Shown here piece by piece: positions 30,157 through 40,834 of a stretch of 64,000 nt of DNA (its first letter is position 1; each line of letters begins with the position of its first letter). The position numbers and the translations under genes are program-made. This stretch comes from an uncultured Ruminiclostridium sp. (lineage in GTDB: Bacteria; Bacillota; Clostridia; Oscillospirales; Ruminococcaceae): assembly GCA_947594425.1 (NCBI GenBank), contig CANQED010000002.1, forward strand, positions 126,364 through 190,363. The letters run 5' to 3'. The notes under the pieces are model-generated. The model had not been told where the DNA came from and did no database searches. It saw nothing but the letters and a program-made list of their open reading frames with translations.

Positions 30157-31701
30157 ATGGTAGGACACGAAAAGGTACTGGTGATAGATTTCGGCGGGCA
30201 ATACAATCAGCTTATCGCCCGCAGAGTAAGAGAGCATAACATATACTGCGAGGTTTTTCCCTACAAAACGCCTATTGAAAAGATAAAGGCGGAAGCTCCC
30301 AAGGGCATTATTTTCACGGGAGGTCCCGCAAGCGTATATCTTGACAGCTCCCCGCATATCTCAAAGGAGATATTCGAGCTCGGCGTGCCGATACTGGGGA
30401 TATGCTACGGCGCGCAGCTTATGGTATATACTCTCGGGGGGAAGATAGGAAAGGCGGACGACAACTCGCTTGCGGAGTTTGGCAGGACGGAGTGCGACTT
30501 TGACGGCGACTGCGCGCTTTTTGACGGGCTGAAAGAGCGCTCGGTAGTTTGGATGAGCCACAACGATTACATAGAAAAGCTTCCCGACGGCTTCCGCGCG
30601 GCGGCTAACAGCGCAAAATGCCCCTATGCGGCCATAGAGGACCCCGCAAGAAAATTTTACGCCACGCAATTTCACCCCGAGGTAAATCACACCGAGCAGG
30701 GCTTTGAAATGTTGGGAAAATTCTTATTCGACGTTTGCGGCTGCAAGGGCGACTGGACGATGTCGAGCTATGCGGAGAGCGCGATAAAGGAGATACGCGA
30801 AAAGGTCGGAAACGGCAAGGTGCTGCTCGCGCTTTCGGGAGGGGTCGACAGCTCGGTAGCCTGCGCCCTTTTGTCAAAGGCGGTGGGCAATCAGCTGACC
30901 TGCGTATTTGTCGACCACGGATTTATGCGCAAAAACGAGGGCGACGAGGTGGAAAAGGCCTTTGCCGACTGGGACGTTAATTTTGTCAGAGTGAACGCGG
31001 GCGAGAGATTTATTAAAAAGCTCGAGGGCGTAAGCGAACCCGAGCGCAAGCGCAAGCTGATAGGCGAGGAATTTATCCGCGTCTTTGAAGAAGAGGCAAA
31101 GAAGATAGGCAAGGTGGACTTTCTCGTTCAGGGTACCATCTACCCCGACGTTATCGAGAGCGGCACGGGCGACGCCGCCGTGATAAAATCTCATCACAAC
31201 GTCGGCGGACTGCCCGACTATGTGGACTTTAAAGAAATAATCGAGCCGCTGAGGTTGTTATTCAAGGACGAGGTGAGAAAGCTCGGCATAGAGCTCGGGC
31301 TTGCCGACTATCTTGTATGGCGTCAGCCTTTCCCCGGCCCCGGGCTTGCCATAAGAATAATCGGAGAGATCACCCGCGAAAAGCTGTGCATCCTGCAAGA
31401 CGCAGACCTTATCTTCCGCGAGGAGATAGCCGCCGCAGGGCTCGACCGCGATATAAATCAGTACTTCGCGGTGCTTACCGATATGCGCTCTGTCGGCGTT
31501 ATGGGCGACGGCAGGACGTACGACTACACCCTCGCGCTGCGCGCCGTGACCACAAGCGACTTTATGACCGCGGACTTTGCAAGAATACCGTACGACGTGC
31601 TCGAAAAAGCGAGCGTGAGGATCGTCAACGAGGTGGGGCATATCAATAGAGTGTGCTATGACGTGACAAGCAAGCCGCCGGCGACGATTGAGTGGGAGTA
31701 A
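30157..31701 (+). CDS. guaA: GMP synthase (glutamine-hydrolysing)
   Basis: [48 protein letters not shown]. Confidence 0.97.
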
Positions 31702-31717
31702 TCCCGGAGGCGCTTAA

Positions 31718-32200
31718 GTGGACATTTTATTTAAAACCGACGACTTTGTATTTTCATACAGGGTCGGCGGCATATTGATCCGCAACGGGAAAATCTTATT
31801 ACAGCGCCCGAAGAATGACGATTATGCCATTATCGGCGGGCATGTCGCTGCAATGGAAACAAGTGTCGAGACCCTTAAGCGCGAATTTGAAGAAGAGCTT
31901 CACACTAAAATAGAGGTAGATGAGCTTGTGGCGGTCGGAGAGATATATTTTCCGTGGGACAACAGACCCTGCCATCAGATATGCTTGTATTATAATGTGC
32001 ATTTGGCGGACGATAATATTCCGTTAGACGGAGTTTTTCATGGATATGATGATTTTGATAACGAAAGAATAGACTTGGACTTTTGTTGGGTCCCGTTAGA
32101 AGAATTAAAGGGAGGCGCTAAGGTTTATCCTTTGGAGCTGATACCGTATATCCTTGAACCGCGTAAGAAAATCGTACATTTTATTTCGAGGGAAGTTTGA
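31718..32200 (+). CDS. NUDIX hydrolase
   Basis: Nudix box GGHVAAMETSVETLKREFEEELHTKIEVDEL. Confidence 0.9.
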   Translation: MDILFKTDDFVFSYRVGGILIRNGKILLQRPKNDDYAIIGGHVAAMETSVETLKREFEEELHTKIEVDELVAVGEIYFPWDNRPCHQICLYYNVHLADDNIPLDGVFHGYDDFDNERIDLDFCWVPLEELKGGAKVYPLELIPYILEPRKKIVHFISREV

Positions 32201-32230
32201 TTATATTTTTTAGAGGTAAACAAAGTACAA

Positions 32231-32266
32231 AAGAGCTATCGGATATTAAGTCCGACAGCTCTTTTT
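32231..32266. terminator. Cassette terminator, copy A
   Basis: AAAGAGCTaTCGGAtattaagTCCGAcAGCTCTTTTT; same hairpin at 38165. Confidence 0.8.
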
Positions 32267-32269
32267 GTT

Positions 32270-32788
32270 TTAGTATAAAATCCCTTTCTCTTTCATTTCA
32301 ACTATTTCCGGCGTGCTTTCATGGTATTTACCAATAATCAAATACAGATAGTTTCTCAAATGTATTATATCTTCCCTGTCCATTGCAATAGTCAGGTGGT
32401 TTGCCGTTAAGCCGTCGTGCCAAAAGTATACTTGCCAGTCGATAGAGATATCGATTATTTCATGAGTACCATTTTCAACACTCAGTTCTTTTTTCGGGGA
32501 CATTTTAAAGCAAAAATCCGGCTCGACAAACACTACATTTACAGGTTCGGTCAATCTGTCACTTATTAAATCATCAAGAGCTTGTGCAAGACCATCGACT
32601 TCAAGTGATAAAAAAACCTCGTCGTTCGTTCCTTTATAATTGAGCCATGGCTCAGAAGAAAACGAATAGCTCACCTCGCACCAACAACCGTATTCATCGT
32701 AGGCGCGCTCGGTTTCATTTTGGTACTGCTGAATTTGGAGCTTTACGATAATCCCGTCTAAATCCATTTGCAACCACATATTAATCAT
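32270..32788 (-). CDS. Cassette A cargo: hypothetical 172-aa protein, possibly immunity-like (WapI-like)
   Basis: ISIDWQVYFWHDGLTANHLTIAMDREDIIHLRNYL; family inference weak. Confidence 0.6.
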   Translation of the reverse strand: MINMWLQMDLDGIIVKLQIQQYQNETERAYDEYGCWCEVSYSFSSEPWLNYKGTNDEVFLSLEVDGLAQALDDLISDRLTEPVNVVFVEPDFCFKMSPKKELSVENGTHEIIDISIDWQVYFWHDGLTANHLTIAMDREDIIHLRNYLYLIIGKYHESTPEIVEMKEKGILY

Positions 32789-32893
32789 CCCTTTCTATTA
32801 GCCTTTAGCTTGTTAAAATTTGTTCCACCGAGGTGTCACCAAGCCCTGCGCAGAACCGCTTACCCTAACACTCCTCACCGCAAAAACCACCTC

Positions 32894-33451
32894 TCAACTA
32901 TTAGCAAACGCAATAATCGCGTCGATATTATCGATAACGAACTGCTGCGCGTCCCTATTATAAAGCACAACGCGATAATTGCCGTAGGGGCTTGTCCTCA
33001 TTTCGGCGGTAATGCCGAGCTTTTCCCCGTCCTCAGTGGGGAGCTTTTTTAACTTGCCGCTCGCGTCGGCTTCTTCAAAAAGCGCGCCGATATTTATAAG
33101 CCAAGTTGTTATGTACTTGTAGCTTATCAGCTTCATCGTTTCGGTATTGATAAGGGCGTTAATTCTTTTAGTGATTTCACTAACAGGTATAGGAGATTCC
33201 GAAAAGGCAAACTGCGCAAGCTTGTCCTGCGTTATCGCAAACGGAACACGCGACGGCTTTTTCGGAGGCTTTATCCCGCCCGCGTCGATGACCTGCCGCA
33301 AGATATCAGACACATAGAATAGACACCGTGACAATCGCACGTTGTTTATAATATCTGCTTGCGCGGCGGGCCGGTCGTCTACTGGGTTTATGCCGTTAGC
33401 TAATTTGTCAATGTATGTCTTCGCGTAAGCGATTTTTTCAAGCTCTGTCAT
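32894..33451 (-). CDS. Hypothetical 185-aa protein, cassette core gene copy A
   Basis: About 91% identical by eye to 38667..39224; RBS AGGGAGGG. Confidence 0.8.
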   Translation of the reverse strand: MTELEKIAYAKTYIDKLANGINPVDDRPAAQADIINNVRLSRCLFYVSDILRQVIDAGGIKPPKKPSRVPFAITQDKLAQFAFSESPIPVSEITKRINALINTETMKLISYKYITTWLINIGALFEEADASGKLKKLPTEDGEKLGITAEMRTSPYGNYRVVLYNRDAQQFVIDNIDAIIAFANS

Positions 33452-33492
33452 GGGAGCCCTCCCTAAAATGTTAAAGCGTTTTTCTATATATT

Positions 33493-33520
33493 ATTATAAT
33501 GTATTTTTCGAGGTTGTCAA
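33493..33520 (-). promoter_or_regulatory. Cassette promoter, copy A
   Basis: Minus-strand TTGACA-16-TATAAT. Confidence 0.8.
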
Positions 33521-33606
33521 GGGGAGAGGGATTTGATAATAAATCTTTCGACCTCACATCTATTGTAACGCTTCACAAGATGATATAAAATGTACGTTTT
33601 ATAGGA

Positions 33607-33635
33607 TTGACAATTTTAGTAAGTTGTGCTATTAT
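33607..33635 (+). promoter_or_regulatory. Predicted promoter of the MTase-like/DUF262 operon
   Basis: TTGACA-17-TATTAT; leaves ~500-nt leader before ORF start at 34150. Confidence 0.5.
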
Positions 33636-34149
33636 AATAATGTATAAATATGGATGCGGTGGGTAATGCCTGTTAGCTATTATAAGCTAAATAAATTACT
33701 TATAGATAAAAATTAATCAAACCGATTCAAAGAGTGCGACCTAAATCATTTTTAATATGTTTGCCAAAATGAGCCGCAATGAATATATGTAGTTAGAAGC
33801 CTCTCCGAAATCTGCCAGGCCCTATTCCCTTGCAGTATAAAGATAAAGCCCGAATGCTTGTATCTCTCAAATCGAGCAGGATTTATCGTTACATGCAGAA
33901 TAATGTCCGAGCCGATTTGCCATCCTATTGCTTGTTAGCCTGTAACCCGTGATTTCGTTGTAATGCAGGAATTTACGATTTAAGATGGACAAATTGAGAA
34001 AGATAATGAACAACTTTACAAAATCATTGATGCAGCAGAGATCAGCTCAGAATAACTGCAAACATATAGAATCCACGTATAAGAAAATTACCTGTGCAAA
34101 TATTAAATGGAGCCCATATTATTCAGTATATCACATTATTGGAGGATTT

Positions 34150-35664
34150 ATGAGTTCTTATACATATAAGCAAGAATCGAAGAATCAAGTACGTCATACG
34201 GTTATTCGGAACGCCGTTGAATTGCTTACTATTAGGCGAAGCGAAGCCTGCTGCGTTCGCAATTCATATGTCCGTGATCTATACGACTATTATCTATCAT
34301 TACCTGAATCTCACGAGCAGACCGAAGCAGCAAAAATTGAGCCGGAATATATCCGTGAATGGGAACACATACATTCAAATTTAATTGGGTATAAGCGCCC
34401 CGATGAATTGTCTGTTTGTTATTTGTCCGGCCCTGAGCCTGAAAATGACTTTAATGAACTGGTAAATATGGGCGTTCTCCCTCAGAATATATGGGCATTC
34501 GAGAATGAACGAAGTACTTATCTGCGAGCATTGGACTCGTTAGACGGAATTACATTCATGCAGCCGAAAATTGTGAAAACGTCTATTGAGAAATTTTTTG
34601 AAAACTCGCCTAAGACATTTGATATAGTTTATATTGACGCTTGTGCATCCCTAATATCTGACCAACACGCTCTTCGCTGTGTTGCAAGCCTATTTAAAAA
34701 TTACCGTCTAAACTCGCCCGGCATATTGATCACAAATTTTGCTTATCTAAATCCCACAGAGACTGCGCAATATATAGATTTGATTTCAAGATATAACATA
34801 ATTCAGCATAACAGGACTGCCAATTTGATAAACGAATCAGGAAAAATACGATTCAAGTATGATGGTCTTGATATCAACAAACAAGTAGAGCAAAACCTTG
34901 AAGATGCTTATGGCGATTTTATTACAGCTATGGTTTGTAATGCGGCTTCTATCACCATTCCTACATTACGTTTTTGTAACTCAACATACTTGCAGGCAAT
35001 TTCAACAAATAATCCGACATCCAATGATTATTTGAGTTATTCGGATGTAAACACAATAAAAGACAATACACTGTATAAATTTCTGACATCAAATTCTTTA
35101 TTAAGCCAAGAAGGAGCTTCCTTCTCCGGAATAGAACGCGTAAATAAATTAGCTGTAGAATTGTCAGGGCTTTCGCAAGGTTTTGACCTGTTGTCTTGTT
35201 TACGTAAACTGCATGATATCAGGACTAAAGCAGGCAACTTCCGTCCTGAGCTTCAAGATGTCGTAGATTTCTTTGATACCGGCAATAAATTGTACCAGTT
35301 CTTGGACAAGCCTAACAGAGTTTTGTTTTTTGATTCTGTTATAAATCAGCTATCGTATCCCATGCATTATGTATCTGATAAAGCCAAAAGGCTTACATAT
35401 ATTGCCAAAAGCACAAGGATGTTTACTGATATGCTGTTGTTTGACGAGTGCAGATATATTTATGATTGGATTCCTGCAATTCATCAAATTCCCAAAGCTT
35501 TTTCAAATCCAAGCTGGCAATATACATTCCGTTTTGGGCTTGATGGACTAATAAAGCAAAGAATCAACTATAATAACGAGTTCTTCTTTCAGGGATCGGT
35601 TGTATCTAAAACAATTCCCGGATTTGAAGCCAAGGTTTTTCCAAAAAGAATTAAAATCAATTAG
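34150..35664 (+). CDS. Putative Rossmann/SAM-methyltransferase-fold protein, partner of double-DUF262 protein
   Basis: GGAGG RBS then MSSYTYKQ; pattern ELSVCYLSGPEPENDF / NIWAFENERSTYLRAL / FDIVYIDACASLI resembles MTase strands 1, 2 and 4; motif I not canonical. Confidence 0.6.
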   Translation: MSSYTYKQESKNQVRHTVIRNAVELLTIRRSEACCVRNSYVRDLYDYYLSLPESHEQTEAAKIEPEYIREWEHIHSNLIGYKRPDELSVCYLSGPEPENDFNELVNMGVLPQNIWAFENERSTYLRALDSLDGITFMQPKIVKTSIEKFFENSPKTFDIVYIDACASLISDQHALRCVASLFKNYRLNSPGILITNFAYLNPTETAQYIDLISRYNIIQHNRTANLINESGKIRFKYDGLDINKQVEQNLEDAYGDFITAMVCNAASITIPTLRFCNSTYLQAISTNNPTSNDYLSYSDVNTIKDNTLYKFLTSNSLLSQEGASFSGIERVNKLAVELSGLSQGFDLLSCLRKLHDIRTKAGNFRPELQDVVDFFDTGNKLYQFLDKPNRVLFFDSVINQLSYPMHYVSDKAKRLTYIAKSTRMFTDMLLFDECRYIYDWIPAIHQIPKAFSNPSWQYTFRFGLDGLIKQRINYNNEFFFQGSVVSKTIPGFEAKVFPKRIKIN

Positions 35665-35675
35665 GAGGAACAAAT

Positions 35676-38006
35676 ATGAGCATAGAATTAGATTGTACAG
35701 ACATCATTGAGATATTCAAAACTCATTTAAAAATTGAAAACTCCGTAAAATCAATTTCTCATACCTTTTTGAATGAAAGGTATGCCAATCGTATCGACTT
35801 TGCTCCCTATTTTCAGAGGAAGTATGTTTGGGATAGCGAGAAAGCGTCATATTTTATTGAGAGCATTATGCTTGGGACAGAAATACCACCAATTGTTTTG
35901 TTTGATGATGGAATCAAAAATGAAGTTATTGATGGCAGGCAGCGTTATGAGACGATCAAGCGCTTTTTAGAAAATACTTTTGCATTAGACAAAAAAGGAT
36001 TAAAATCCTTAACCGGTTTTTGTGACCTTCATTTTTCGCAATTACCGAACGATGTTATTGCTGAGTTTAAGAACACCAAAATACGCATTCTCCAGTTCAG
36101 TATTGTCAACGAACCATCACTAACTTCTGAGCAGAAAGATAAAGTTAAAAAGGAAATTTTCAAAAGATATAACTCCGGGATAATAGCTCTAAAGCAACAA
36201 GAAATTGACCGAGCAGCTTACATAAACGATCCATTTGTTCACACCTTTAAGGAAAGATTGGAAAAAGATAATCCTCTGCGGAATAAGTGCCAGCTTATCT
36301 TAATGCCAAGGCGCAAACAAAGTATGAACGAGCGAGATAAAGTCAATTACATTCTATCAAGAGCACGCAATGTTCTTTCTATGCGGTATATTCCGATTCA
36401 AAGTTACGCAGCTGCAAGCTCTAAATCCGATGTGATTCGCAACTATATGTTGATAAAAGTTGAAAAGGAATCTGTTGAAAATACGCTTGTTATGTTTGAA
36501 CAGGTCATTAACAGACTTTGTGACATACGTAACGAATTTGTTGAATTAGAATCATCCATCTCTGATAACACCTTGTTTTTCGAGGTTCTGTTTTGGGGAT
36601 TATCAATTGTGCTTGAAACGTCCCACGAGCTATTTTGGGCAATAAGTGCAAATCAGATTGCACATGATGTTCTTCAATGTACGGATATCCCTTGTTTTTG
36701 GAAAAATATATCCGTTGAGAGAAACGAATTTGGAATGGTGTTTTTCTCAACAGGCAGCCATTATTATAAGTCTATTTTGAACAGATATACATTTATTGCA
36801 AATTACTTGCAAGATAAAACCGGTATAGATTTCTCGTCAAAAATCAAAAATAAAGCTTCTTTTGATTCGATAATGTCTCAAACCCCGCTGATTGACCAAT
36901 ATAATAATTTCAAACTTTCAAAGACTGATCCTGTTTCAGCGACAGTTTATGACATTTTAACAGACGTGAAAACATCAAATTTCATCATACGCCCGGATTA
37001 TCAAAGATCAGAGGTTGAAAATAACATCCAAAAAGCCTCATATTTAATGGAAAGTATTATGCTCGGCATTCGCATTCCGCCAATTTTTATTTTTCGTCGC
37101 TCCGATAGTGTTAGCGAAGTTATTGACGGGCAGCAACGGCTACTGTCTATTCTTGGATTTCTTAAAGAAACATATAAAGATGAAAATGGGAAAGAGCAAA
37201 AATCTAATAAGCATGGATTTAAGTTATCTAAATTACGTTTCCTAAAAGAACTTAACGGAAAAGACATTGCCGGCGTCGAGGAAATCGACCCTAATTTCAA
37301 GGATCGGATTCTGGATTTTCAAATTGATATTGTTGAAATTAATCAGTCCCAGAACCCTCATTTTACTCCCATTGATCTTTTCCTTAGGCTTAATTCAAAG
37401 CCTTTCCCGATTGAGCCGAACACCTTTGAGATGTGGAATGCTTATGTGACAAAAGAATATCTCGAAACAATTAAAGAATACGCGAAAGAATACTCCGGAA
37501 AACTATTTAAACCGATCGATACACGTATGAAGAATGAAGAGCTAATAACTATGTTGGCATATTTAGCCTATATTGAAAAGAAAGATCAAATTAAACCGGG
37601 CGATTATTTGAATATCTTTGTACGAAATCAAAGAATAAATGCTAGGTTCAGAACAAAAGGTAATATCACAACAAAACTCGGCGAAATATCAAGTACGAAT
37701 GATCCTGTGTTTGGCGAGGCAATAGACGACGTTAAGTTATTCATTGAAAAGCTTCAGGCTCTTTGCGGAAGCAGATTCCAAGATTTCAATAAGATGTTGG
37801 GACATTCTCGGAAATACACTCTGAGCCGAACTAATCAAAATTTTTATCTGTTATGGATTGCTCTTGATCATATTGATTATGAGCGTGTTAAACAAAACAA
37901 GGCTGAGATATTTAAAAAAATAACAAATTTATTTTTGCAGAGCCAATACATAAACGACGATGAATTTGACGTAAAAGGTTTCATCCGGGAGCTTTCGAGT
38001 ATATAG
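35676..38006 (+). CDS. Tandem double-DUF262 protein (GmrS/ParB-like), no DUF1524 HNH domain recognised
   Basis: Two DUF262 signatures: PYFQRKYVWDSEKASYFIESIMLGTEIPPIVLF...VIDGRQRYETI and PDYQRSEVENNIQKASYLMESIMLGIRIPPIFIF...VIDGQQRLLSI. Confidence 0.85.
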   Translation: MSIELDCTDIIEIFKTHLKIENSVKSISHTFLNERYANRIDFAPYFQRKYVWDSEKASYFIESIMLGTEIPPIVLFDDGIKNEVIDGRQRYETIKRFLENTFALDKKGLKSLTGFCDLHFSQLPNDVIAEFKNTKIRILQFSIVNEPSLTSEQKDKVKKEIFKRYNSGIIALKQQEIDRAAYINDPFVHTFKERLEKDNPLRNKCQLILMPRRKQSMNERDKVNYILSRARNVLSMRYIPIQSYAAASSKSDVIRNYMLIKVEKESVENTLVMFEQVINRLCDIRNEFVELESSISDNTLFFEVLFWGLSIVLETSHELFWAISANQIAHDVLQCTDIPCFWKNISVERNEFGMVFFSTGSHYYKSILNRYTFIANYLQDKTGIDFSSKIKNKASFDSIMSQTPLIDQYNNFKLSKTDPVSATVYDILTDVKTSNFIIRPDYQRSEVENNIQKASYLMESIMLGIRIPPIFIFRRSDSVSEVIDGQQRLLSILGFLKETYKDENGKEQKSNKHGFKLSKLRFLKELNGKDIAGVEEIDPNFKDRILDFQIDIVEINQSQNPHFTPIDLFLRLNSKPFPIEPNTFEMWNAYVTKEYLETIKEYAKEYSGKLFKPIDTRMKNEELITMLAYLAYIEKKDQIKPGDYLNIFVRNQRINARFRTKGNITTKLGEISSTNDPVFGEAIDDVKLFIEKLQALCGSRFQDFNKMLGHSRKYTLSRTNQNFYLLWIALDHIDYERVKQNKAEIFKKITNLFLQSQYINDDEFDVKGFIRELSSI

Positions 38007-38164
38007 ATAACAGCCCTTCGCTGACAACATCGTGAATAGCCCGTAATATATTGATAATCTGAATAATCCCGATGCCTTGAGCAAAATAATATATACAAAA
38101 TTAGTTAAGTCACGCTTTTAGAGAGCAAGTGAGAATTATTTAGCTGTTACAAAAAATAAAAATT

Positions 38165-38201
38165 AAAGAGCTATCGGATATTAAGTCCGACAGCTCTTTT
38201 T
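38165..38201. terminator. Cassette terminator, copy B
   Basis: AAAGAGCTaTCGGAtattaagTCCGAcAGCTCTTTTT. Confidence 0.8.
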
Positions 38202-38204
38202 GCT

Positions 38205-38588
38205 TTATCCATTATTACACATGCGATGGAACGCATTCCAAAATTCATTCCAGTTTTCAGGAGTTGCATCTTGACCTTTACAAGCGACAGATATATCTTC
38301 TATATGTATTTCAAATGTCCAAATATCAGCCGGCGGCATCCAACACATTGATGATTCGTAACAATGCATATTCCATTTATCAATACCTAATCTTTTGATC
38401 TCATTGTAAAATGTATCAATTTTATCAGTAATATCAAAATGATGCTTTTCTCCGTTTTTATAAGCGTCAATTAAAAATTTACCGTCAGATACAGATAATA
38501 TCGCATACTCCAGATAGTTTATTTTACTATCCGAAAAACAATCTATATATCTGTTAACAGTAAACTTAAAACCACTTAGTTTTGCCAA
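38205..38588 (-). CDS. Cassette B cargo: hypothetical 127-aa protein
   Basis: MAKLSGFKFTVNRYIDCFSDSKINYLEYAIL...; unrelated by eye to cassette A cargo. Confidence 0.6.
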   Translation of the reverse strand: MAKLSGFKFTVNRYIDCFSDSKINYLEYAILSVSDGKFLIDAYKNGEKHHFDITDKIDTFYNEIKRLGIDKWNMHCYESSMCWMPPADIWTFEIHIEDISVACKGQDATPENWNEFWNAFHRMCNNG

Positions 38589-38666
38589 CTATTCATACCT
38601 CATTTTATTAATGTCACTTAATCTTGCTCTGATTTCTACTATAATCATCATATTAAAACTTCTCCC

Positions 38667-39224
38667 TCAACTATTAGCGCAAGCAATGATCGCGTCGATA
38701 TTATCGATAACGAACTGCTGTGCGTCCCTATTGTATACGACGACGCGATAATTGCCGTAGGGGCTTGTTCGCATTTCTGATGTTATGCCGAGCTTTCCCC
38801 CGTCCTCGGTGGGGAGCTTTTTGGCTTTCCCGCTCGCGTCGGTTTCCTCAAAAAGCGCGCCGATATTTATAAGCCAAGTTGTTATGTACTTGTAGCTTAT
38901 CGGCTTCATCATATCGGTATTGATAAGGGCGTTAATTCTTTTAGTGATCTCGCTTACCGGTATAGGAGAGTCCGAAAAGGCAAATTCTGCGAGCTTGTCC
39001 TGCGTTATCGCAAACGGAACACGCGACGGCTTTTTCGGCGACTTTACTCCGCCCGCGTCGATGACCTGCCGCAAAATATCGGACACATAGAATAAGCACC
39101 GTGACAATCGCACGTTGTTTATAATATCCGCTTGCGCGGCGGGCTGGTCGTCTATCGGATTTATGCCGTTAGCTAATTTGTCAATATATGATTTCGCGTA
39201 AGCGATTTTTTCAAGCTCGGTCAT
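38667..39224 (-). CDS. Hypothetical 185-aa protein, cassette core gene copy B
   Basis: Paralogue of 32894..33451. Confidence 0.8.
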   Translation of the reverse strand: MTELEKIAYAKSYIDKLANGINPIDDQPAAQADIINNVRLSRCLFYVSDILRQVIDAGGVKSPKKPSRVPFAITQDKLAEFAFSDSPIPVSEITKRINALINTDMMKPISYKYITTWLINIGALFEETDASGKAKKLPTEDGGKLGITSEMRTSPYGNYRVVVYNRDAQQFVIDNIDAIIACANS

Positions 39225-39265
39225 GGGTGCCCTCCCTAAAATGTTAAAGTGTTTTTCTATATATT

Positions 39266-39293
39266 ATTATAATGTATTTTTCGGGGTTGTCAA
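39266..39293 (-). promoter_or_regulatory. Cassette promoter, copy B
   Basis: Minus-strand TTGACA-16-TATAAT. Confidence 0.8.
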
Positions 39294-39365
39294 GGGGAGG
39301 AATTCAATTTACATATTGCTCTTTTCCGAATAATATGATATACTATTTTAAAAGGAGATGTTTTT

Positions 39366-40295
39366 ATGCCTATTCCTAAATATTATGAATTTTTTGCGCC
39401 GGTTATGGAGTGCCTTGCAGACGGCAAAACTCACACCGCAAAGGAAACCCGTGAATACTGTGCAAGCTATTATAAACTATCGGATAAAGAACAGAGCGAA
39501 AAGCTCCAATCGGGCCATACGATATTATTAAATAGGGTCGGCTGGGCGCGTACATATCTGTCCAAAGCAGGTCTTATACAAAAAGTAAACGGGGGAGTTT
39601 ATGCGATAACTTCCGAGGGCAAAAAGGCAATTGCGGACGGTTATAACAAAATTACTGTTGAATTTTTGGAGCAATATCCGACGTTCAACGATTTTACCAA
39701 AAAAACATTCGGAAAAAAAGATAATCAAAATAATATAATTGAAGGTATTTCTGTCTCGCAGGAACAAAGTCCCGAGGAGTTGCTCGAGGACGCGGCTATG
39801 CAGCTTGATTCCAATCTATCCGAGGAGCTTTTGGGAGAGCTTATGAAAATATCCCCTTATGATTTTGAGGAAGTAGTAATTAAGCTGCTTATCAAAATGG
39901 GATATGGAAAACCTGAGGAGAACAAGGAAGCCGTGACCCCAAAGTCCGGTGACGAGGGCATCGACGGCATTATCAGTGCAGATAAATTCGGATTTGATTC
40001 GATCTATATTCAAGCAAAGCAGTGGAAGTCTGGGAGCGTTGTCGGCAGACCCGAAATTCAGAAATTTTTAGGAGCTCTCGCCGGACAGGGAGCGTCAAAA
40101 GGCATTTTCATTACCACAGCGCAGTTTACAAAAGAAGCAATCTCGTATGCCGCAAAGCAGCTTCACAGCAAAATCGTCCTTGTGGACGGCAATCAGCTTG
40201 CCAAGCTGATGATAGAGTACGACCTTGGCGTATCGACTGTCGCAGTGTATAAAGTAAAGCGTATAGATACAGATTTCTTTAATGAGGATATATAA
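39366..40295 (+). CDS. mrr: Mrr-family restriction endonuclease
   Basis: N-terminal winged-helix Mrr_N; catalytic SGDEGIDGIISAD...IYIQAKQWKSG...VGRPEIQKFLGALAGQGASKGIFITTAQFTKEA. Confidence 0.93.
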   Translation: MPIPKYYEFFAPVMECLADGKTHTAKETREYCASYYKLSDKEQSEKLQSGHTILLNRVGWARTYLSKAGLIQKVNGGVYAITSEGKKAIADGYNKITVEFLEQYPTFNDFTKKTFGKKDNQNNIIEGISVSQEQSPEELLEDAAMQLDSNLSEELLGELMKISPYDFEEVVIKLLIKMGYGKPEENKEAVTPKSGDEGIDGIISADKFGFDSIYIQAKQWKSGSVVGRPEIQKFLGALAGQGASKGIFITTAQFTKEAISYAAKQLHSKIVLVDGNQLAKLMIEYDLGVSTVAVYKVKRIDTDFFNEDI

Positions 40296-40357
40296 TCGTA
40301 TAAATAATCTGTTATTTTGACAAGTATGTTCCTATATTTTTCCCCAAGGAGACCCCT

Positions 40358-40834
40358 ATGTACAAAATCATGTTCGTCTGTCACGGCAACATCTGCCGCT
40401 CGCCCATGGCGGAATATATTTTGCGCGACATATTAAATAAGCGCGGCTGCGGGGACTTGTGCCTGATATCCTCCGCCGCCACAAGCACTGAAGAGATATA
40501 CGGCGGGAGCGGCAACCCCGTCTACCCTCCCGCAAAGGCGCAATTGTCAAAGCGCGGGATAGACTGTTCAAAAAAGCGCGCCGTTTTGCTGCTCAAAAGC
40601 GACTATGACCGCTATGACCTTTTTATCGGGATGGACGGTATGAATATCCGCAATATGCACCGCATATTCGGCGGCGACCCCGAGGGCAAGATACATAAGC
40701 TTAAGGAATACACCGTCGGCGGCGACGTTGCCGACCCGTGGTACAGCGGGGATTTTGACACGGCGTACAGCGAGATATACGACGCTTGCAGCGCTTTAGC
40801 CGGTATGATAATAGGCGGCGGGCTTTTTGTATGA
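40358..40834 (+). CDS. Low-molecular-weight protein-tyrosine phosphatase
   Basis: KIMFVCHGNICRSPMAEYIL (CX5R), VADPWYSGDFDTAY. Confidence 0.94.
   Translation: MYKIMFVCHGNICRSPMAEYILRDILNKRGCGDLCLISSAATSTEEIYGGSGNPVYPPAKAQLSKRGIDCSKKRAVLLLKSDYDRYDLFIGMDGMNIRNMHRIFGGDPEGKIHKLKEYTVGGDVADPWYSGDFDTAYSEIYDACSALAGMIIGGGLFV

Follow-up and report, generated by a model that had tools for sequence, protein, structure and literature searches.

The window, by which we mean the whole 64,000-nucleotide stretch analysed here, comes from an uncultured Ruminiclostridium sp. and carries, behind guaA, two neighbouring minus-strand cassettes (copies A and B) that have a promoter, a 185-aa core gene and a terminator in common and differ in the cargo gene between core and terminator. 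The features of the region, in window coordinates, are:

31718-32200, plus strand: NUDIX gene after guaA (PF00293), left border of the variable region
32229-32272, minus strand: copy A terminator hairpin and common right block (repeat search, genome search, folding)
32270-32788, minus strand: copy A cargo, 172 aa, WapI-like immunity family (PF24716, E=1.7e-9)
32894-33451, minus strand: copy A core gene, 185 aa, predicted N-terminal helical segment and winged helix
33493-33520, minus strand: copy A promoter TTGACA-16-TATAAT, 12/12 consensus positions; common upstream block from CTCCCC, at about 33525
33985-35664, plus strand: 559-aa protein of no family (no confident match), between the copies beside the GmrSD-type gene
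35676-38006, plus strand: 776-aa GmrSD/DUF262-type restriction protein, between the copies (PF03235, E=2.7e-30, two stretches; PADLOC NsnA, 1e-54)
38165-38207, minus strand: copy B terminator hairpin and common right block (repeat search, genome search, folding)
38205-38588, minus strand: copy B cargo, 127 aa, TTG start, orphan (homology searches)
38589-38651, minus strand: 20-codon ORF MMIIVEIRARLSDINKMRYE, stop TAG, in frame with and directly before cargo B
38667-39224, minus strand: copy B core gene, 185 aa, 91% identical to A (alignment)
39266-39293, minus strand: copy B promoter TTGACA-16-TATAAT (alignment, consensus scan)
39366-40295, plus strand: Mrr-type (type IV) restriction endonuclease beside copy B (PF04471, E=1.8e-35; PADLOC mREase_IV, 2.9e-76)

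An earlier note, made from the letters alone, had described this pair, and pairwise alignment of the minus strands confirms that the two cassettes are real and lie where it placed them. Similarity runs from CTCCCCTTGACA through the core to ...AATAGTTGAG, breaks off, and restarts at the cargo stop codon TAAARCAAAAAGAGCTGTCGGACTTAATATCCGATAGCTCTTT. Between the cores, 16 of 185 residues differ, as had been counted approximately by eye, and the cargo genes (172 versus 127 aa) and spacers are unrelated as claimed, with similarity ending sharply on both sides. In a repeat search the two copies have 300 nt at 89% and 43 nt at 98% in common. The right-hand 43-nt block, which holds one A/B difference and terminates with the hairpin, begins within the cargo stop codon; the exchanged segment therefore extends precisely from the core stop to the cargo stop. 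Whole-genome BLAST with copy B gave as further matches only the core and the terminator of copy A.

The only complete (12/12) sigma-70 consensus matches in 32000-39600 are the two cassette promoters, both with a 16-nt spacer. Across 71 genomes of the genus, the promoter 29-mer occurs only at A, at B and at a WapI cassette of a second species (G035); outside WapI cassettes the promoter is not conserved. The hairpin 29-mer, identical in A and B (29/29), resembles a terminator and has a T-rich tail. Its folding energies are -22.8 and -21.4 kcal/mol (z -8.9 and -6.0 against shuffles), and a search of the 2.6-Mb assembly that allowed up to 3 mismatches located exactly two copies (reversed-pattern control, 0). 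No Rfam element was detected at the hairpin or elsewhere in 31500-40500, and an operator repeat was not identified. Promoter and terminator together differ between A and B at 4 of 112 sites, compared with a core dS of 0.38 (dN 0.041, pS 0.297); under the core synonymous rate this gives a binomial P=1.5e-12, in a calculation that assumes independent sites and cannot separate flank selection from flank exchange. Given this disparity, the frame itself is either constrained or exchanged, while the dN/dS of 0.11 indicates that both cores are under purifying selection.

Fixed flanks around different cargo, flanks far more conserved than the synonymous sites of the core, and one cargo of the WapI family would all suit an integron-like or immunity-array system with active swapping, its cargo genes being regularly exchanged between a fixed promoter and terminator. 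We regard such a system as very improbable, since the promoter is confined to those three loci and the terminator occurs only twice in its own genome, since no integrase or other recombinase ORF was recognised in the island and no attC, attI or att repeat in the region, and since a single swap is seen within the frame. A transposon reading was dropped because the cassette ends lack terminal inverted repeats and no transposase is present. Conserved 5' and 3' blocks around variable protective genes are also a feature of esaG/tipC immunity-gene recombination (PMC9484751). In the cassettes, by contrast, the constant block consists of a separate upstream gene, a promoter and a terminator, and the exchanged genes are unrelated rather than paralogues.

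The order of events can be read from the second species, in which promoter, core and WapI gene follow one another in the same order (locus L046/L128; WapI 67% identical to cargo A) elsewhere on the chromosome, close to a type II DNA methyltransferase. The core tree pairs A with B as sisters (100/98), within a clade that includes L046 and L031 (100/94). The gene order in G035 and the sisterhood of A and B together imply that the core-WapI operon predates the A/B duplication and that B is the copy with replaced cargo. Judged from gene order and tree, the ancestral copy is probably A, with B a duplicate in which an orphan took the place of the WapI gene. Hence the cargo swap between conserved flanks proposed in the earlier note stands insofar as cargo was replaced at least once, WapI being the partner in another species too; its integron-like array does not, and what the frame documents is one swap. 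In G035 itself (L046:4990-6101), the core has an in-frame deletion of most of its N-terminal segment, and the terminator hairpin is interrupted at the contig end by an apparent IS end (TGACCCCAAAAAGTTAGACA).

Cargo A matches PF24716 at 38.5 bits (curated cut-off 27) over residues 11-155 and, on this profile match, is classed as a WapI-family immunity protein. RHS repeats (PF05593) are absent from this genome (G000) and from G035, and a B. subtilis positive control was matched; cargo A, if protective, is hence an orphan, and an orphan immunity role is possible. An immunity gene of PF24716 with no toxin beside it recalls the WapI immunity proteins and polyimmunity loci of polymorphic toxin systems (PMC3482391, PMC5566331). 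The cassettes differ from these in that no toxin was found and in that the cargo genes form no tandem immunity arrays, each following a constant core gene instead. No confident homologue of cargo B was found among 394 genomes of the order, in plasmids or in viral contigs. Its sole marginal match beyond its own genome is in G033 (26%, E 1.5e-4), its best weak match, to the uracil-DNA glycosylase inhibitor MCUGI (E=0.0082, 54 residues), is a lead only, and its single-sequence AF2 model (pLDDT 43) is unusable. Cargo A thus falls in a recognised immunity-protein family, whereas B is unproven as such. The TTG start of cargo B directly follows the TAG of the in-frame 20-codon ORF, an arrangement that may reflect coupling or a premature stop. 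This ORF (38589-38651) has a good ribosome-binding site.

The cassettes are set in a defence island, the GmrSD-type gene lying between the copies and the Mrr-type gene beside B. Behind guaA, gene content differs in all eight relatives checked (L129-L136), a variable site of the kind by which genomic islands are recognised; guaA and the PTP gene are not adjacent in relatives, and G035 has a broken NUDIX remnant downstream of guaA. The guaA gene is an integration site elsewhere. It also features in papers on genomic islands and integration sites (for example, PMC9376610). No direct repeat of the guaA 3' end was found beyond chance. Integrase-like ORFs were noticed by eye behind guaA in L133 and L136, and L130 carries an Mrr gene 84% identical to that of the window. 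The 559-aa protein and the GmrSD-type protein (33985-38006) could possibly form a two-gene defence system.

In a region this variable, the pair could be an ordinary duplication whose differing downstream genes are chance neighbours with no functional link, and several cores elsewhere do lack a downstream partner. We consider this unlikely, given that the core-WapI order is maintained together with its promoter across species and sites, and that the replacement in B is exact from stop to stop between unusually conserved flanks.

The core protein belongs to no Pfam, NCBIfam, PADLOC or PHROG family and has no solved relative, the best hits, a designed scaffold and ribosomal eS10, being non-significant. 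A PDB fold search likewise gave no significant match. Its AlphaFold2 model (pLDDT 92) has helices at residues 3-18 and 38-56, followed by a winged-helix-type domain from about 75 to 185, with weak matches to PadR and antirepressor folds. The first, third and fourth viral Foldseek matches are antirepressor or repressor domains (probability 0.97-1.00), with weak E-values (best 1.2e-3) and low TM-scores. The core is thus predicted, on the model, to consist of an N-terminal helical segment and a winged helix resembling phage antirepressor (KilAC-type) domains. KilAC/ANT-type C-terminal domains are its best viral fold matches, but unlike phage antirepressors it has no sequence-level Pfam match and no BRO-N or AntA domain. 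Among 47 members of the core family there was no WYL match in Pfam and no KilAC/ANT profile match at E 0.05.

The same winged helix is fused behind RecQ-HRDC in six genomes, with homology detected by profile search (E 1e-15 to 1e-23). Three of the fusions (L170, L171, L172) are confirmed by Pfam and three (L205-L207) rest on similarity to L170; the confirmed genes, RecQ-HRDC helicases with the core winged helix as an extra C-terminal domain, are:

L170:591-2786
L171:2421-4772
L172:2117-4723

In contrast to these Clostridia fusions, the core is free-standing, has its own N-terminal segment and adjoins no helicase in the cassette. Some members of the genus have two such C-terminal domains in tandem (L070, L075). 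One further protein (L173:1166-2437, 424 aa) combines a Sigma70 region-4 match with a core-type winged helix at its end, and its N-terminus (LGVDPTTGE) resembles the LANGINP motif of the core. The core is present in 23 of 99 relatives, in 33 of 393 genomes of a class sample and in 12 of 399 of a phylum sample, RecQ fusions being included in the last two counts. It was found in no plasmid and not in IMG/VR, and among phage records in three short unannotated contigs.

The genes beside the core were surveyed in a clade of 41 cores, the window copies included. Defence genes adjoin or neighbour the core as DUF3427-PLD type IV restriction (L038, L039), AbiEi/AbiEii with a pRiA4-ORF3-like gene (L041 by scan, L040 read as the same gene order), a YobI/Tmn-like NTPase (L042), a TIR-STING effector (L055), PtuA-PtuB of Septu (L118), Druantia E (L119), AbiLi (L044) and PDC-S18 (L034). 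Methyltransferases or type I/IIG restriction genes lie near the core in L035, L041, L046 and L061, and giant helicases of about 1600 aa (DEAD/Helicase_C plus UvrD) overlap or adjoin it in L032, L033 and L175. The pRiA4-ORF3-like gene stops 3 nt before the core in L035, L037, L040 and L041, in two of these loci directly after AbiEi-AbiEii. Many loci of the clade (for example, L036, L043 and L045) have no defence gene nearby, and outside the clade the core stands beside tcdA and other household genes. Defence enrichment around the in-clade core is evident by inspection; in a coarse PADLOC comparison, 93 in-clade neighbours yielded 91 matched families and 86 out-of-clade neighbours 47, counting families rather than loci, with a control that is not fully matched and no P value claimed.

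The 185-aa protein is supported as the constant module. It does not always keep the same cargo, and its partners vary widely across the family. Elsewhere it often closes a defence operon instead of heading a cargo slot. L042 shows a second replacement: L042:4734-5961 matches L038:4810-5941 at 74%, the match starting some 60 codons short of the end of the L038 restriction gene and continuing through core and MutT. Upstream of this DUF3427 type IV restriction remnant (about 60 codons), L042 has the YobI/Tmn-like NTPase in place of the restriction gene. Together with cassette B, this shows that partners beside a constant core have been exchanged at least twice, once upstream and once downstream.

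Such exchange bears on whether core and cargo act on each other, as a toxin-antitoxin-like or effector-immunity pair. Two-gene operons, AbiE neighbours in relatives and an immunity-family cargo are consistent with a pair of this kind, yet we give it little chance: the selected core sequence is kept with unrelated partners or with none (L031, L034, L043, L061), so no cognate pairing is conserved, and the missing Rhs repeat genes of G000 and G035 also speak against it.

The frequent position of the core at the end of operons and its RecQ fusions favour a role on DNA with helicases. As a detached RecQ-type C-terminal DNA-binding domain, the core would be an accessory subunit acting on DNA and aiding nearby helicases, nucleases and immunity proteins, with the cassette as its operon. 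Pairings with DEAD-UvrD helicases (three), DUF3427 helicase-nucleases (two) and the Druantia E helicase (one) fit this role. We think it somewhat unlikely, given that no helicase is encoded beside A or B, that promoter and spacer are conserved in WapI cassettes, and that a small immunity protein is an unobvious partner for a helicase subunit.

The reading we prefer, at a probability of about one half, is that the defence island behind guaA holds A and B as paralogous operons of two genes each. Their core, from a Clostridia family that has no name, would be a winged-helix protein that probably binds DNA and that defence and competition loci carry as an exchangeable accessory module. The promoter-core-WapI-terminator operon predates the split of the window lineage from G035. 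After its duplication, the stretch from core stop to cargo stop in copy B was replaced by an orphan gene, presumably by recombination with the flanks as homology, leaving promoter and hairpin nearly unchanged. The core is most likely an accessory or regulatory protein that acts by binding DNA, and in the WapI-type cassette it would control its own operon, as favoured by the conserved promoter spacer, the restriction of the promoter to these cassettes and the winged-helix fold. It may, less surely, bind its own promoter with the conserved -35/-10 spacer and would thereby control a co-transcribed protective gene, WapI immunity in A and the orphan protein in B.

In this the core would work like the BrxR/CapW WYL-domain regulators of phage-defence loci (PMC9122601, PMC9122589), of a different fold family. 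Those are winged-helix proteins, as the core is predicted to be, and are likewise carried with many unrelated defence systems or islands, 48% of BrxR homologues co-localising with known systems (PMC9122601). The core differs in having no WYL domain or Pfam match, in its N-terminal helical segment and KilAC-like winged helix, and in standing often last, not first, in an operon. The last-gene position in many defence loci is unusual for a regulator and counts against regulation, and distant family members without defence context, such as those beside tcdA, count against the preferred reading as a whole, as do the weak Foldseek similarity with its low TM-scores, the lack of an operator repeat and the lack of promoter conservation beyond the WapI cassettes. 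More tentatively, the core may be a new family of defence-island adaptors, a free-standing RecQ-type/KilAC-like winged helix that sits on many unrelated anti-phage or anti-toxin genes in Clostridia, regulating or assisting them while partners are replaced.

The cassettes show, with unusual clarity, a real replacement of cargo in a duplicated operon, and they provide a lead to a defence-associated protein family that has no name. If the preferred reading is true, defence and competition genes throughout gut Clostridia are marked, and perhaps controlled, by one small uncharacterised protein family, much in the manner of WYL regulators elsewhere. The core would then be a marker by which new systems could be discovered, examples being the 559-aa protein next to GmrSD and the orphan cargo B, and would tie RecQ helicase biology to defence islands.
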